Positions 32,397 through 36,275 of a stretch of 42,678 nt of DNA are shown here, one piece after another; position 1 is the stretch's first letter; each line of letters begins with the position of its first letter. This stretch comes from Alistipes sp. (GTDB lineage Bacteria; Bacteroidota; Bacteroidia; Bacteroidales; Rikenellaceae): the NCBI GenBank assembly GCA_017504265.1, contig JAFVRN010000002.1, forward strand, positions 1 to 42,678. Reading direction: 5' to 3'. The notes below the pieces were generated by a model. It searched no databases, had not been told where the DNA came from, and was given only the letters and a program-made list of their open reading frames with translations. A program made the translations under genes and the position numbers.

Positions 32397-32523
32397 TCTT
32401 AGAAGTTGTATAACAAGAGCTATTTTTAAGCCGCTTGCAGGCCGGAAAAGAGGAGTTTGCTTAGAGTAAATGACCATTTTTCGGACACGGCAAATGCCCC
32501 AAAAAAGTCTTGCAAGAGATGCA

Positions 32524-32563
32524 GTGACCCCAAAAGTTTTTTTGTCCAAACTTTTGGGGTCAC
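32524..32563. terminator. Perfect 16-bp hairpin, probable terminator
   Basis: GTGACCCCAAAAGTTT (32524-32539) pairs without error with AAACTTTTGGGGTCAC (32548-32563), followed by TTCATTTTT on the plus strand. No gene ends just before it, so it may be left over from a lost gene or belong to the repeat zone. The following GGTCGCTC and CTCTTCGAAAGCCTGTGCCA match the bases flanking the E repeats further on. Confidence 0.65.
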
Positions 32564-32611
32564 TTCATTTTTGGTCGCTCCTCTTCGAAAGCCTGTGCCA
32601 CACTCTGACAG

Positions 32612-32804
32612 ATTATCGAACTGCGTTCAGCAGAGCGAGAGTAGACCTAAATAGATTGGCGGGTAACTCGCAGAGTGCTAAGTGGAGAAATGGCACGATG
32701 AAGCTTGCTTCAATCGGGTTATTGCTCGACATAGCATATTGCATAGCAATATCCGCCAAGATATGCAGACAAGTCTGCCGAGCCGCCACAGTCAGTGCGA
32801 GTCC
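32612..32804. repeat. Foldback element E1, diverged copy
   Basis: The left edge TCGAACTGCGTTCAGCAGAG and the right edge GAGCCGCCACAGTCAGTGCG match E2-E4. The interior differs but keeps the same layout. The outer stem is TTGGCGG (32656-32662) with CCGCCAA (32753-32759). Side hairpins are ACTC-GCA-GAGT (32666-32676) and TTGC-ATA-GCAA (32739-32749). A central arm has AAGCTTGCTT at its tip. Open frames that cross it on either strand are not credible genes. Confidence 0.7.
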
Positions 32805-32831
32805 CTTTATACGCAGAAAAGCGACCCTCAA
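32797..32831. repeat. Left copy of a 35-bp direct repeat (tRNA 3'-end-like)
   Basis: Starts GCGAGTCCCTTTATACGCAG and is identical over 35 bases to 35375-35409. The first part resembles the 3' end of the tRNA-Leu at 36194-36275 (CGAGTCCCTTTATCCGCA). It overlaps the right edge of E1 and runs into a terminator-type hairpin. With the right copy it brackets the AT-rich segment 32832-35374. Confidence 0.85.
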
Positions 32832-32843
32832 CAGGTCGCTTTT
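32816..32843 (+). terminator. Terminator-like hairpin at the left direct repeat
   Basis: AAAAGCGACC pairs with GGTCGCTTTT around CTCAACA, a perfect 10-bp stem ending in TTTTGTG. The left arm belongs to the direct repeat; at the right repeat only this arm is kept. It looks like the terminator that once followed a tRNA-type 3' end. Confidence 0.65.
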
Positions 32844-32859
32844 GTGCCTCAACCTGACA

Positions 32860-32964
32860 GACCCTCGAACTTTTGTAGATGATTTCTATAAGGTTGTAGA
32901 GTTTGTTGAGTGGTTGAAGGAAAACTACCCTGACAAGGCCTCATATCATACATCTAAAATGTAG
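32860..32964 (+). pseudogene. 3' fragment of a small gene related to 34422-34643
   Basis: The frame ending at the TAG at 32962-32964 encodes a tail with DDFYKVVEFVEWLKENYPDK. The intact small gene at 34422-34643 ends with KIVEFIEWLKDFYPEKAELL. The two match at 11 of 15 positions across VEF-x-EWLK-xx-YP-x-KA. Upstream the frame runs into repeat and hairpin sequence with no start of its own. It is best read as the broken end of a paralogue cut at the left direct repeat. Confidence 0.65.
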
Positions 32965-32993
32965 TAATATTTCTTGCAATGTCCCTGGGAGTG

Positions 32994-33024
32994 TTGTTCG
33001 TTTCGGAAATTCTTTTTAATTTTG
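32994..33024 (+). promoter_or_regulatory. Promoter for the rod-shaped ncRNA
   Basis: TTG at 32994-32996, 20 bases, then TAATTTTG at 33017-33024. Transcription would start near 33031, just before the long paired region. No protein gene with a plausible sequence begins close to it. Confidence 0.6.
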
Positions 33025-33030
33025 TAGTGC

Positions 33031-33275
33031 TATTGGATAAATAGCAGACATATTGAAAGTGTTTTTCGCAATCCTTAATCGAAAATGTGGAAGTTTTCAA
33101 GACAGTAGGATAACGAACAGCACTCATTTCTTGTATAGCTATGCGGCTATGCACTATTCGTGCATATATACCCCATACTATCCAAGTGTGGGGCATTGTA
33201 TCGTTTATTACTGTCAGGTCTTTCCACAACCTTCGATTAAATAAACGGGAATCATCTCCACACTTTCTTTTTATA
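33031..33275 (+). ncRNA. Candidate rod-shaped small RNA (6S-like) or long structured leader
   Basis: The transcript predicted from the promoter at 32994 folds on itself along its length. Pairs, from outside in, are GAAAGTGT (33055) with ACACTTTC (33260), TTAATCGAA (33075) with TTCGATTAA (33232), TGTGGAA (33086) with TTCCACA (33222), GACAGTA (33101) with TACTGTC (33209), and ATAACGA with TCGTTTAT. Apical hairpins are ATGCAC/GTGCAT and CCCCATACT/AGTGTGGGG. The outermost stem is followed by TTTTTAT, a possible terminator. An unpaired bubble of 13 against about 19 bases sits between the first two stems. Own promoter, rod shape and bubble recall 6S RNA (the Bacteroidales-1 family). It could instead be a regulatory leader of the lipoprotein gene at 33347. 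Confidence 0.5.
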
Positions 33276-33346
33276 CGTTAATCCACCGCATAGGAGATGC
33301 TACGGTAATATAGTTTGAATAAACAATTACTAAAACTTATTTTACT

Positions 33347-34417
33347 ATGAGAAAGATTTTCACATTATTTGTGGCCGTATTTGTATTGATAACAAGTTGT
33401 ACAGAAAAAAACGATGACCATATAATCAATTCAGCAGATTGTTCACTAAATGAAATTATTTATACCACTAAATATGATTATCCGATTGAACTCAATGTGA
33501 CAAATGGATTCGGTGGAAATTTTGTATCACACACTTATGAAGATGGTATTGGCAAGATTGTTTTTGACAATGATGTCATATGCATACCAGCACGCGCATT
33601 CTATAATTGTGATACGATAGAATCAATCATTATGCCTTCTAATGTAAGAGATATTCAGAAAGGTGCTTTTTTGAATTGTAGCTCTTTAAAAACTCTGGTC
33701 ATAGGAAATGAAATTAAGACTGTCGCTTACGATGCATTCAATGGCTGTACACAATTAAAAGAATTTAATTGTAAACTAGCTTCAAAGGATAAAAGATGTC
33801 TAATCATAGACGGGGAATTGGAAGCAATACTATTAACTGATTATAATGAACATGCATATACAATTCCCAATAATGTTACAAAAATCGGAAATCAAATTTT
33901 TAGAGATTGTGAATATGAATTTGATTTAAATATTCCTGACGGTGTATCAATAATAGGAGATAATGCATTTTACAATGCTAAATTTTCTAATATTTCTATT
34001 GGAAAGGATATTAAGGAGGTTGGGGAAAATGCATTCCGTGGATGTGCAGGAGAGGTGTTCATTAATTGTAATATAGGAAATAAATGGTTTAAAGAATCAA
34101 ATTTTACACATATAAGTGTTGCTGATAATGTAACTCAAATTGGAGATTCTGCATTCTATAGTTGCGACGGTCTCGCAAGTGTTATAATCGGCGATGGCGT
34201 AACGACGATTGGAGGATCTACATTCTGTGGTTGCAACAGCCTAACAAGTGTCTATTTCAAGGCGACAACACCGCCGACATTGGGTGATAGTTATGTATTC
34301 ACCTTTAACGCTGATGGTCGCAGGCTTTATGTCCCTGTCGAGTCGGTAGAGGCGTACAAGGCAGCCGAGAATTGGAGCTACTATGCCGCAGATATTGTTG
34401 GCCACGACGGTGTGTAG
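33347..34417 (+). CDS. BspA-type leucine-rich repeat (LRR_5) lipoprotein, mosaic
   Basis: Predicted surface lipoprotein of unknown ligand. The 356-residue protein has a lipobox (VFVLITSC, Cys 18) and LRR_5 repeats of about 23 residues, recognised by A-F-x-x-C-x-x-L and I-x-x-x-V-x-x-I-G-x-x-A-F (for example VRDIQKGAFLNCSSLKTLVI and VTQIGDSAFYSC). The C-terminal end, PPTLGDSYVFTFNADGRRLY and onward, is the usual BspA closing segment. The first 800 bases are strongly AT-rich while the last 270 have the GC level and codons of the surrounding genome. BspA proteins often mediate adhesion, but that is not shown here. Confidence 0.85.
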   Translation: MRKIFTLFVAVFVLITSCTEKNDDHIINSADCSLNEIIYTTKYDYPIELNVTNGFGGNFVSHTYEDGIGKIVFDNDVICIPARAFYNCDTIESIIMPSNVRDIQKGAFLNCSSLKTLVIGNEIKTVAYDAFNGCTQLKEFNCKLASKDKRCLIIDGELEAILLTDYNEHAYTIPNNVTKIGNQIFRDCEYEFDLNIPDGVSIIGDNAFYNAKFSNISIGKDIKEVGENAFRGCAGEVFINCNIGNKWFKESNFTHISVADNVTQIGDSAFYSCDGLASVIIGDGVTTIGGSTFCGCNSLTSVYFKATTPPTLGDSYVFTFNADGRRLYVPVESVEAYKAAENWSYYAADIVGHDGV

Positions 34418-34421
34418 AATT

Positions 34422-34643
34422 ATGTTAGTGACAACACAACAAATAGCGAAATTGATTGATGACTATATCAATAAAGGCTATGCTGACAGAGTGCTCAAAA
34501 TAGAGTGGCGAGGTCAATATATCAGAGGTCATGTTCCGTGGAACAACGCCGAGGATTGCTACCATAAGTGGTTGAAGATTGTTGAGTTCATCGAGTGGCT
34601 AAAAGATTTTTATCCCGAAAAAGCAGAATTACTCAAAAAATAA
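34422..34643 (+). CDS. Small protein of unknown function
   Basis: 73 residues from the ATG at 34422, starting 4 bases after the lipoprotein stop, so it could be translated from the same mRNA. An earlier in-frame ATG at 34383 lies inside the lipoprotein gene and is less likely. The sequence is soluble and charged (TTQQIAKLIDDYINKGYADR, VEFIEWLKDFYPEKAELL). No family is recognised. A related 3' fragment lies at 32860-32964, which shows that the sequence is or was a real coding unit present in more than one copy. Confidence 0.6.
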   Translation: MLVTTQQIAKLIDDYINKGYADRVLKIEWRGQYIRGHVPWNNAEDCYHKWLKIVEFIEWLKDFYPEKAELLKK

Positions 34644-34644
34644 A

Positions 34645-34687
34645 TTCACTTTTTTAGTGAACTTTTAAAAAAATAGCATTATCTTTG
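34645..34687 (+). promoter_or_regulatory. Promoter and possible operator of the higBA pair
   Basis: TATCTTTG at 34680-34687 is a -7 box, 20 bases before the higB ATG. A small inverted repeat, TTCACT-TTTTT-AGTGAA (34645-34661), covers the -33 zone. It could be the site where the HigA antitoxin represses the pair, or a weak terminator for the gene before. Confidence 0.5.
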
Positions 34688-34707
34688 CAACACAAATATA
34701 GGTGATA

Positions 34708-35028
34708 ATGATTGTAAAATTTGACAAAGCGTATTTGTCTGAATTATACTATAATGGCAAATGTAGCGATAAGAAACATCGCTATCAGCCTGATATAGTG
34801 AAGCGATACAAACGAAGAATTGACACCTTGAATGACGCATCGTGCATCGAGGCGTTGTATCACTTGAATTCATTGGAATACGAAGTATTATCTGGCGATA
34901 AGGAGGGCATATCTTCAATTCGAGTTAATGATAAATACAGAATTGAATTTATTGTTTCACACGAAGAAGATGGTAAAGCATTGTTAACTATTTGCAACAT
35001 TATTGAATTGTCAAACCACTACAAATAA
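34708..35028 (+). CDS. higB: HigB-type (RelE superfamily) toxin
   Basis: Predicted ribosome-dependent mRNA interferase. 106 residues from the ATG at 34708; a GTG at 34702 is a less likely start, since related toxins begin with MIV. Family features are the LYYNGKCSDKKHRY and DIVKRYKRRIDTLNDA helices, YEVLSGDKEGISSIRVND and the strand YRIEFIV. The gene lies 8 bases before an HTH antitoxin, the toxin-first order of hig modules. AT-rich relative to the core genes around the zone. Confidence 0.88.
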   Translation: MIVKFDKAYLSELYYNGKCSDKKHRYQPDIVKRYKRRIDTLNDASCIEALYHLNSLEYEVLSGDKEGISSIRVNDKYRIEFIVSHEEDGKALLTICNIIELSNHYK

Positions 35029-35036
35029 GATAAGCT

Positions 35037-35348
35037 ATGGGAAATTTAGGTTATCCATACACTCCAACACACCCAGGAGAGATAATAAAAGAGGAGATTG
35101 AATATAGAGGCATATCGCAGAAGGTGCTGTCGCAGCAGATGGGTGTGTCATACTCTATGTTGAATGAGATACTGAATGGAAAACGTCCTGTTACGGAGGC
35201 TCTTGCTCTCTGTTTTGAGGCTGCATTAGGCATTGAGGCTGAAATGCTTTCCAATATGCAAACCAGATACAATATGCAAGCTGCACGCAAGGATAGTCGT
35301 TTGATGGCCCGACTGTCGGAAATCCGTAGGGTTGCAGCGATGTTATAA
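35037..35348 (+). CDS. higA: HigA-type HTH antitoxin
   Basis: 103-residue XRE-family DNA-binding antitoxin expected to bind HigB and repress the pair. It opens with the family marks THPGEIIKEEIEYRGISQ and the helix-turn-helix QKVLSQQMGVSYSMLNEILN, with NGKRPVTEALALCFEAALGI after it. Full length. It ends 26 bases before the right direct-repeat region, so the pair sits at the right end of the island. Confidence 0.92.
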   Translation: MGNLGYPYTPTHPGEIIKEEIEYRGISQKVLSQQMGVSYSMLNEILNGKRPVTEALALCFEAALGIEAEMLSNMQTRYNMQAARKDSRLMARLSEIRRVAAML

Positions 35349-35374
35349 TCAACATTTTTGCGAAGCTTTGCTTC

Positions 35375-35409
35375 GCGAGTCCCTTTATACGCAGAAAAGC
35401 GACCCTCAA
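35375..35409. repeat. Right copy of the 35-bp direct repeat
   Basis: Identical to 32797-32831. It is preceded by a small palindrome, GCGAAGC-TTT-GCTTCGC (35360-35376). Unlike the left copy, the second arm of the terminator hairpin is absent and the sequence continues with AATATAATACTCGACTACC. No integrase gene lies between the copies. Confidence 0.85.
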
Positions 35410-35445
35410 AATATAATACTCGACTACCATCCAATTAGTACGACC

Positions 35446-35629
35446 GGACTCGAACTGCGGCAGCAGAGCGAGAGCAATGGCAAAGGGGGCGCAACGACCG
35501 CAGGTCGGGAAAGTAGATGATGGATAATAGGGAGCTTGCTCGCTAAACTATCCATCATCTGCTTTACAAGGTTGCAGAGCAACTGCGCACCCAAAACTAT
35601 TGCCGAGCCGCCACAGCGAGTGCGAGTCC
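35446..35629. repeat. Foldback element E2 (184 bp)
   Basis: Bounded by GGACTCGAACTG and the inverted CAGCGAGTGCGAGTCC. The outer stem is GGGGGCGCA (35485) with TGCGCACCC (35584). Side hairpins are CGACC-GCA-GGTCG (35495-35507) and GTTGC-AGA-GCAAC (35571-35583). The central stem is AGATGATGGATA (35515) with TATCCATCATCT (35549), with GAGCTTGCTC near its tip. Together they make a four-way junction. Confidence 0.8.
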
Positions 35630-35639
35630 CTTTATCTGC

Positions 35640-35684
35640 ACAGGCACAAAAAAAGACGAACGACCAAAAAGTCGCTCGTCTTCG
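35640..35684. terminator. Copy of the tRNA-Leu terminator hairpin between E2 and E3
   Basis: AAGACGAACGAC, a CAAAAA loop and GTCGCTCGTCTT are the same as the hairpin that follows the tRNA-Leu gene at 36154-36183. It is flanked by the same CTTTATCTGCACAGGC and CGAAAGCCTATGCC. No tRNA is attached here. Confidence 0.7.
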
Positions 35685-35726
35685 AAAGCCTATGCCACAC
35701 CACAACAACCAACCGAATAGCACTCC

Positions 35727-35908
35727 GGACTCGAACTGCGTTCAGCAGAGCAAGAGCAATGGCCAGGTGAGCATACGACCATAGGTCGGAAAAGTGAATG
35801 GATAATACTGGGGAGCTTGCTCACCGAAGTATTATCCATTGGCTTTTCGAAGTTGCGTAGCAATATGCTCACCGTAAACTATTGCCGAGCCGCCACAGTC
35901 AGTGCGAG
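35727..35908. repeat. Foldback element E3 (182 bp)
   Basis: The outer stem is GGTGAGCATA (35766-35775) with TATGCTCACC (35864-35873). Side hairpins are CGACC-ATA-GGTCG (35776-35788) and TTGC-GTA-GCAA (35853-35863). The central stem is AATGGATAATACT (35797-35809) with AGTATTATCCATT (35828-35840). The arms differ from E2 but every stem is kept. E3 and E4 with their left flanks form a tandem direct repeat of about 220 bp. Confidence 0.85.
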
Positions 35909-35946
35909 CTTTACCACAACAACCAACCGAATAGCATCCCCCCCCC

Positions 35947-36130
35947 GGACTCGAACTGCGGCAGCAGAGCGAGAGCAATGCCAAGGTGAGCATACGACCA
36001 TAGGTCGGAAAAGTGAATGGATAATACTGGGGAGTTTGCTCACCGAAGTATTGTCCATTTGCTTTTCGAATTTGCGTAGCAATATGCTCACCGTAAACTA
36101 TTGCCGAGCCGCCACAGTCAGTGCGAGTCC
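35947..36130. repeat. Foldback element E4 (184 bp)
   Basis: Nearly identical to E3, with the same stems and side hairpins. A run of nine C (35938-35946) comes immediately before its left edge GGACTCGAACTG; E3 has only two C there. The right edge CAGTGCGAGTCC continues into an inverted copy of the tRNA-Leu 3' end. Confidence 0.85.
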
Positions 36131-36146
36131 CTTTATCTGCACAGGC

Positions 36147-36183
36147 ACAAAAAAAGACGAACGACCAAAAAGTCGCTCGTCTT
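36147..36183 (-). terminator. Terminator of tRNA-Leu
   Basis: On the minus strand a hairpin (AAGACGAGCGAC, TTTTTG loop, GTCGTTCGTCTT) is followed by seven T, 11 bases beyond the tRNA 3' end. This is a textbook intrinsic terminator. Beyond it, 36124-36146 carries an inverted copy of the tRNA 3' end and its flank. Confidence 0.85.
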
Positions 36184-36193
36184 CGAAAGCCTG

Positions 36194-36275
36194 TGCGGAT
36201 AAAGGGACTCGAACCCCCACGCCTCTCGGCATCAGATCCTAAGTCTGACGTGGCTACCAATTACACCATATCCGC
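36194..36275 (-). tRNA. tRNA-Leu (anticodon TAG)
   Basis: An 82-base gene on the minus strand. The acceptor stem is GCGGATA with TATCCGC (discriminator A, CCA not encoded), the D arm has GTGTAATTGGTAGCCAC, the anticodon stem-loop is CAGACTTAGGATCTG with anticodon TAG, a short variable arm TGCCGAGAGGCG follows (class II, as for Leu), and the T arm is GGGTTCGAGTCC. The next sequence is its terminator. All arms pair well, so it should be functional. Confidence 0.93.

Follow-up and report, generated by a model that had tools for sequence, protein, structure and literature searches.

The DNA stretch analysed here (the window) comprises 42,678 nucleotides (nt) of an Alistipes sp. assembly (GCA_017504265.1, contig JAFVRN010000002.1, our contig C17), whose genome of 1.83 Mb is divided into 48 contigs. 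It carries a tRNA-Leu(TAG) gene, adjoined by an array of three foldback elements, E2, E3 and E4, and a fourth one, E1, that lies 2.6 kb farther away (Table 1). An initial annotation, made from the sequence alone, had proposed these four as copies of one family, E, and all four were located. E has a non-coding core of about 170 nt, and its folded strand is opposite to that of the gene next to it, which we call the target. As E3 and E4 are 95–96% identical, part of the window array is a recent local duplication.

E2, E3 and E4 fold into an imperfect outer stem, two side hairpins with 3-nt loops (CGACC-NNA-GGTCG and TTGC-NNA-GCAA) and a long central stem, the tip of which is GAGCTTGCTC in E2 and E3 and GAGTTTGCTC in E4. 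This four-way junction had been described for all four copies; it holds for E2–E4, and the side hairpins of E1 differ (ACTC-GCA-GAGT and ATTGC-ATA-GCAAT) and are absent from its minimum-energy fold (−71.3 kcal/mol, vs. −67.1 kcal/mol when they are forced). The left end of E1 is GATTATCGAACTG and not GGACTCGAACTG, as had been stated. On the + strand, none of 200 shuffles folded as well as the native sequence for each of E1, E2 and E3 (z-scores in Table 1; E4 was folded without a shuffle control), and the − strand of E3 had a z-score of −6.0. Changes on both sides of the stems, noted already in the initial annotation, were evident in 14 of 63 pairs among E1–E4 alone and in many more across the genus. 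When 36 copies were aligned on our covariance model R1, 92.2% of the cells were paired, compared with 66.7% after shuffling, and 62 of 70 pairs were changed on both sides. Because this alignment is fitted to the structure, we repeated the analysis on 32 cores that MAFFT had aligned from sequence alone. Here 74.6% were paired (59.9% after shuffling), 48 of 58 pairs were changed on both sides, and the covariation score was 0.419, compared with 0.185 after shuffling and no more than 0.192 when the structure was slid; the basal stem was poorly aligned there (48% paired). Conservation is highest in the two side hairpins, in the GAGAGC..GCCGAG-CGCCAC part of the outer stem and at the tip. The four-way junction is under strong compensatory change, also on an alignment that was not fitted to the structure.

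E is a genus-wide family and not a local oddity. A covariance-model search of related genomes, named beforehand as a check, matched 42 of 101 genus genomes with R1 and 57 of 101 with R2, a model of the core, with up to 21 matches per genome among the matches listed. These genomes were the window's own and 100 drawn from a larger group, and were searched with stricter filters. Copies were not restricted to this locus, and the side hairpins were conserved elsewhere. Among 198 genomes of the order, R2 matched two besides the window's own, with three weak matches of 51–68 nt that skip most of the model and that we treated as chance. A DNA search of 61 relatives matched nine genomes, all of the same genus, and all 28 stretches found with a conserved E motif were titled Alistipes, Tidjanibacter or Rikenellaceae bacterium, mostly from ruminant hindgut. 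Distant-mode BLAST of E4 against phages and plasmids gave no match.

The copies are tied to the 3′ ends of RNA genes. Sixty loci fetched by covariance-model matches were read by eye, a non-random sample of 20 loci chosen by match rank and 40 chosen by copy number from genomes G093, G030, G080 and G072. A tRNA or transfer-messenger RNA (tmRNA) gene lay within ~300 bp on the 3′ side in 46 of the 60 (15/20 and 31/40, respectively), and it was convergent to E in 46/46. The targets included tRNA-Leu (TAG, CAG, CAA, TAA, GAG), Ser (CGA, TGA), Val, Glu, Asp, Met, Pro, Gln, Gly and Arg(CCT), as well as tmRNA. Five further loci (L061, L071, L092, L109, L118) were at a conserved, unannotated small-RNA-like sequence with GTTAGTAG, which has no Rfam match and in four of them (L061, L071, L118 and L109) ends ATTTATTTAAGTTTGGGTTAGTAG, followed by a variable hairpin and a terminator. 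The gene before it in L061, L071 and L118 is one that we take to be ndk-like, while in L109 and L092 the contig end cuts off the sequence before the target. The other nine (L060, L063, L067, L096, L099, L104, L107, L110, L116) were remnants, at contig ends or ambiguous. In G093, for which 20 of the 21 matches were used, an E core lies 55–86 bp 3′ of 13 of the 36 tRNA genes, always convergent, and none lies within 120 bp 5′; the other seven copies comprise two behind tmRNA, two members of a tRNA-Val array, two at small-RNA-type targets and one orphan.

Read in the sense of the tRNA, the order of the parts is X, terminator hairpin, X′, core and x. X is the 3′ end of the target from C56 (T-loop GTT/CGANTCC and acceptor), X′ is the reverse complement of X, including the trailer and ending at C56, and x is a direct copy of the target from C56, about 7 nt long and preceded by GTT or GGT. 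X′ agreed with its own upstream target at a mean of 14.4 of 18 positions (n = 54) and with other targets at 9.3 of 18, and scores of at least 15/18 were reached by 31 of the 54 own comparisons vs. 7 of 2,596 cross comparisons. The 54 are those with an upstream GTTCGA target among 84 of 93 matches; some are array copies whose nearest GTTCGA is the x of another element, which lowers the own score. The length of x was 7 nt in 23 of 56 copies and 6–8 nt in 41 of 56. Both ends vary with the target (Leu, Ser, Val, Gly, Glu, Arg, Gln, tmRNA). The terminal inverted repeats reported initially are present, and yet they are not the element's own sequence: they are copied from the neighbouring tRNA gene, to which, judging from the comparison, the T-arm-like ends belong. 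Similarly, the suggestion of a mobile element or RNA that uses tRNA-like features stands insofar as E is dispersed, structured and tied to tRNA genes, but not as mimicry encoded by the element, as the ends change with the target. The core is not tRNA-like; ARAGORN and Rfam find only the real tRNA in the window.

Cores that are nearly the same stand behind different targets. In G093, cores behind Val, Met and Asp are 93–98% identical and those at tmRNA and Ser(TGA) are 98% identical; in G030, cores near Ser(CGA) and at Gly are 99% identical. When such copies are aligned with their flanks, the identity begins at TCAG just inside X′ and stops at GTT, and in six groups of like cores X′, acceptor, terminator and x all follow the target, the core alone being common. 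Thus, in the sequences compared, the core is constant and X′ and x differ from target to target. Between genomes (83 of 84 cores, those below 140 nt being omitted), the mean core identity was 0.617 for the same target (327 pairs) and 0.613 for different targets (2,678 pairs), and identities above 0.8 were commoner at the same target (30/327) than at different ones (101/2,678). The similar means, together with the excess of close pairs at the same target, indicate that cores have to some extent been inherited in place and have been much exchanged between targets.

Empty sites, the inspection of which had been suggested in sister strains, were found in two relatives that are separate species, G018 (L248) and G315 (L249). 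Both have tRNA-Leu and its terminator, with no X′ in the fetched stretch and no E match in an R2 search of it. At the first one the tRNA-Leu sequence continues as ...CCGCACGAGCGACTGTCATTTGGCAGTCGCTTTTTTGTTTTTC, while in G030 and G027, which have a near-same tRNA and terminator, the T-run leads straight into GTGCGGATAAAGG(G/C)ACTCG and then E. Among 59 tRNA genes scored, an X′ of at least 12/18 was found at 28 of the 29 with E and at 3 of the 30 without it. The presence of E was judged here by eye, since the motif test of our script missed several copies, and some tRNAs tallied as E-less (e.g., L097-Ser, L114-Val) have E farther off.

Table 1. E copies, pieces copied from the target, and the target gene in the window. 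R1 and R2, covariance models; z, fold z-score on the + strand; X′, inverted copy of the target 3′ end.
Feature	Position	Strand	Core	Score	Remarks
E1	32608-32807	+	32627-32790	R1 74.1 bits; R2 113.3 bits; z −5.0	Most diverged copy; far end GATTATCGAAC, not of tRNA-Leu type
X′ of E1 and hairpin AAAAGCGACC..GGTCGCTTTT	32795-32843	+			X′ is a copy of the tRNA-Leu 3′ end, CGAGTCCCTTTATACGCA; inverted repeat with 36194-36214, 90%
Small hairpin GCGAAGC..GCTTCGC, then X′/terminator piece without E core	35360-35409	+			A like piece without E core lies behind tRNA-Leu in L255
E2	35444-35632	+	35460-35615	R1 197.3 bits; z −6.9	
X′ and terminator copy joined to E2	35620-35683	+		Terminator scan	Inverted repeat with tRNA 3′ end 36189-36214, 92%
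E3	35725-35910	+	35742-35897	R1 205.1 bits; z −6.6	Right arm cut, without X′ or terminator
E4	35945-36133	+	35961-36116	R1 217.1 bits	Nearest copy behind the tRNA
X′ of E4	36121-36146	+			Inverted copy of tRNA-Leu 3′ end and trailer; 92% complementary to 36189-36214
Terminator hairpin	36153-36184	−		Terminator scan	Between tRNA and E4
tRNA-Leu(TAG)	36193-36275	−		ARAGORN; Rfam 55.7 bits	Target gene, convergent to E

The fold is specific to one strand. In the central hairpin, under symmetric scoring, the strand opposite to the tRNA has 69 G-T vs. 6 A-C mispairs, and by copy 29 of 36 favour G-T, one shows the reverse and six tie. Of 83 cores, 66 fold at a lower energy on the + strand, as do 29 of 36 after dropping copies that are at least 85% alike, while random pieces of the window split 97/200. 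This strand specificity is compatible with RNA and likewise with single-stranded DNA.

Taken together, these patterns lead us to regard E as probably a mobile element that is non-coding and non-autonomous and for whose ends each target serves as the template. By the same judgement, it would insert immediately downstream of the T-run in the terminators of tRNA, tmRNA and small-RNA genes, and hairpin-primed copying, of which the products are what we see, would make both of its ends. In this mechanism the 3′ end at the terminator T-run would fold back on itself and copy the gene's own 3′ end up to the T-loop (T55/C56); synthesis would then pass on to the E core, whose end, with the core folded, would copy about 7 nt of X′ before being joined to downstream DNA. 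We lean slightly toward copying on RNA (the E strand as RNA together with pre-tRNA, copied by a polymerase) rather than on DNA at replication, because what we saw as targets were the ends of RNA genes and because the central hairpin has a G-U bias on one strand. The DNA-replication route would need no special enzyme, and would not by itself explain these targets, among which we saw hardly any protein-gene terminators.

Several observations weigh against this explanation. Not all x fit it, as 5 of 56 are 15–20 nt long and 3 of 56 are 1 nt long, and L107 has no visible RNA-gene target. The tandem arrays duplicate whole units with the terminator, e.g., in a Rikenellaceae metagenome-assembled genome (L229, 137-1474; four E matches, first spacings 290 bp). 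E1, L063 and L110 keep a Leu-type X′ in or beside a small protein gene, the antisense of which has a T-loop-like GTTCGATAATC or GTTCGATAGTC; hence, whole units also spread, whether by homology or locally. In L030 the far end goes on as a displaced tRNA end would, and has a hairpin, a pattern more readily expected of an integrase. G-U pairs are no commoner in folds of the + strand (279/4,712) than in folds of the − strand (350/4,761), a count to which we gave less weight as the fold of each strand was optimised separately, but which lends the strand bias no support. Three E-less tRNAs (L219, L098-Met, L197) have an X′ of 12–14/18, which may be decayed copies or belong to other foldback families, and L255 has X′ followed by a small hairpin, with no E match. 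X′ can therefore exist without a recognisable core, and these cases slightly lowered our confidence in the explanation. The genomes compared with and without E are separate species, and hence no strain-level insertion was seen. Finally, no enzyme or partner gene for E mobility was found: Y1 transposase matched 0 of 26 genomes (5 of 14 control genomes match), and reverse transcriptase (RVT_1) matched 11 of the 26 genomes, which are incomplete, 5 of 12 E-rich and 6 of 13 E-less, with no match in the window's genome. RVT_1 had no match in the E-rich G093, which has the most copies, nor in G080, G072 and G101, but G030 and G091 do have it; the distribution of reverse transcriptases does not follow that of E.

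A search for a cargo-bearing or autonomous form of E yielded one pair of half-elements 533 bp apart (L102), with no open reading frame (ORF) between them that we recognised by eye as an enzyme, and this candidate was rejected. Eight more such pairs, 279–451 bp apart, were taken as parts of neighbouring copies.

In its boldest form, which we offer tentatively and would rate at somewhat below even odds, the templated-end explanation makes E a mobile element of a new kind: only the ~170-nt core would travel, as a bare structured RNA or as single-stranded DNA, and both ends would be made by terminator-primed fold-back copying of the 3′ end of each host RNA gene. Target choice, end formation and the outer stem might then, in the same tentative proposal, be one base-pairing event. 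Mobile elements are usually recognised by their own ends, and ends that are rewritten from each target would escape end-based annotation. If the proposal is true, a different mobility reaction is needed and terminator hairpins of tRNA genes could prime copying in living cells. Any genome can be screened for the arrangement X-terminator-X′-core-x.

A specific version of the templated-end explanation is that E is a satellite of a retroelement, its RNA being joined to a tRNA 3′ fragment cut at T55/C56 and copied from a DNA 3′ end at the terminator by a reverse transcriptase acting in trans. It predicts the order X-terminator-X′-core, which fits the geometry well, and would account for the strand bias of the central hairpin and for insertion behind a stem-loop, as described for group IIC introns (PMC10190682). 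We nevertheless consider it doubtful, as RVT_1 was found in only the 5 of 12 E-rich genomes mentioned above, and not in the one richest in copies, and as E has no match to group II introns or any other Rfam family in the window and five loci.

Alternatively, E could be old structured RNA genes fixed behind tRNAs, with gene conversion keeping their cores alike, the target-matched ends staying in place and no transposition at all. The homology borders are sharp and fall where the shared sequence stops, as those of conversion tracts would; some copies behind the same tRNA in different genomes are 96–98% alike, and the excess of pairs above 0.8 identity at the same target points the same way. Old, fixed genes, however, sit poorly with the patchy presence of E (57/101 genomes, 1–21 matches each), with the lack of X′ at 27 of 30 E-less tRNAs, and with the two empty sites, where unrelated sequence follows the terminator, and we find this alternative improbable.

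Still less probable, in our view, is an integron-like or tyrosine-recombinase cassette, in which E would be an attC-like site that recombines at the T-loop GTT and brings a new tRNA 3′ end and terminator. The strand-specific fold, the GTT at the border in both tRNA- and small-RNA-type targets, the tandem arrays and the window genes between copies (HigB-like, helix-turn-helix and BspA-type) would all suit it, and a phage attB in a tRNA T-loop has been reported (PMC1762012). However, near-identical cores keep the acceptor and terminator of each target, which means that the would-be cassette does not travel, and most far ends have no displaced tRNA end beyond ~7 nt. A search of 17 genomes with the broad family PF00589 gave two matches in the E-rich G072 and three in the E-rich G093 (one below the cut-off), and a tyrosine recombinase dedicated to E was not evident. 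An integrase acting on the T-loop and leaving a displaced tRNA end was rejected on the basis of the empty sites and far ends.

Other repeats and genes were seen at these loci. In the window, three other foldback repeats (the R array, 203-595) have ends ATTTTTGTCAGA...CACAAAAAT and a central stem GGATGG..CCATTC. An ORF of 164 amino acids (32470-32964) is open through E1 and joins two fragments resembling a small gene family (..DYRT..DD..EWLK..YP) with the antisense T-loop-like GTTCGATAATC and no Pfam match, and between E1 and E2 are a BspA-type leucine-rich repeat gene and, at 34702-35348, a pair of HigB-like toxin and helix-turn-helix antitoxin-like genes. Other nested foldbacks stand behind tRNA terminators in L197, L107, L190 and L216, where inverted trailer/terminator copies seem, by eye, to flank unrelated hairpins; the end-copying phenomenon may be wider than E. 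In L031 (the same place as L059), a different foldback with near-perfect ends CACACATAGGGACTCGAAC / GTTCGAGTCCCTATGTG, likewise with T-arm sequence, lies between tRNA-Leu and E. Another dispersed sequence, CGCGAAGC..GCTTCGC and ATATTTACAATCCCTCCAAACCTCCCTTTGA..AAGGGAGGC, occurs in L255, L256, L067 and L254, and in L255 it takes the place of the E core behind X′. L114 and L104 have second copies of a tRNA 3′ end (AATCCGTCAACTCCCAC; AATCCCACTAC) away from a tRNA, as after tRNA-targeted integration. In L067 (1-270) and L252 an E copy is split by what is presumably an insertion sequence, in view of an apparent transposase motif.

A constant core with ends matched to each host RNA gene fits none of the families that we compared, and in the open-access literature, consulted mostly by abstract, we judged no paper among those listed to describe such an element. 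At gathering score, the Rfam matches in the window and five loci were limited to tRNAs and one cobalamin riboswitch, and a lax threshold around one copy gave matches at chance level only. Miniature inverted-repeat transposable elements, repetitive extragenic palindromic sequences with their associated transposases (REP/RAYT) and IS200/IS605 derivatives have ends that belong to the element. E is likewise short, non-coding, palindromic and dispersed, but its ends belong to the target and vary between copies, and there was no Y1 transposase in the 26 genomes. The 6–8 nt copies (41/56) might be compared with target-site duplications of fixed length, but their partner is inside the tRNA and not at the element border. 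Integron attC sites act as a folded single strand, with variable stem sequence, conserved ends and tandem arrays. The strand used is reportedly the bottom one (PMC2117344). E resembles them as a strand-specific folded site with variable stems and tandem arrays, and differs in its three-hairpin junction, in the lack of a cassette gene at most viewed copies and in ends that are rewritten for each target; unlike a cassette, the unit does not move whole and the core alone is shared, although the units of tandem arrays do include the terminator. Group IIC introns insert behind a DNA stem-loop (PMC10190682), and E similarly stands just behind a stem-loop, the terminator, as seen from empty vs. filled tRNA-Leu sites; in contrast to these introns, it has no ribozyme match and carries an inverted target copy, and several E-rich genomes have no reverse transcriptase that we found. 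Lastly, tRNA-targeted islands are reported to restore the gene, with a displaced fragment left behind (PMC4383910). E shares with them its position at the 3′ end of tRNA and tmRNA genes and the T-loop copy at its far side, but, with no displaced fragment in most copies (the exceptions being L030 and the 5 of 56 copies of 15–20 nt), it leaves the gene and its terminator in place and adds an inverted copy.

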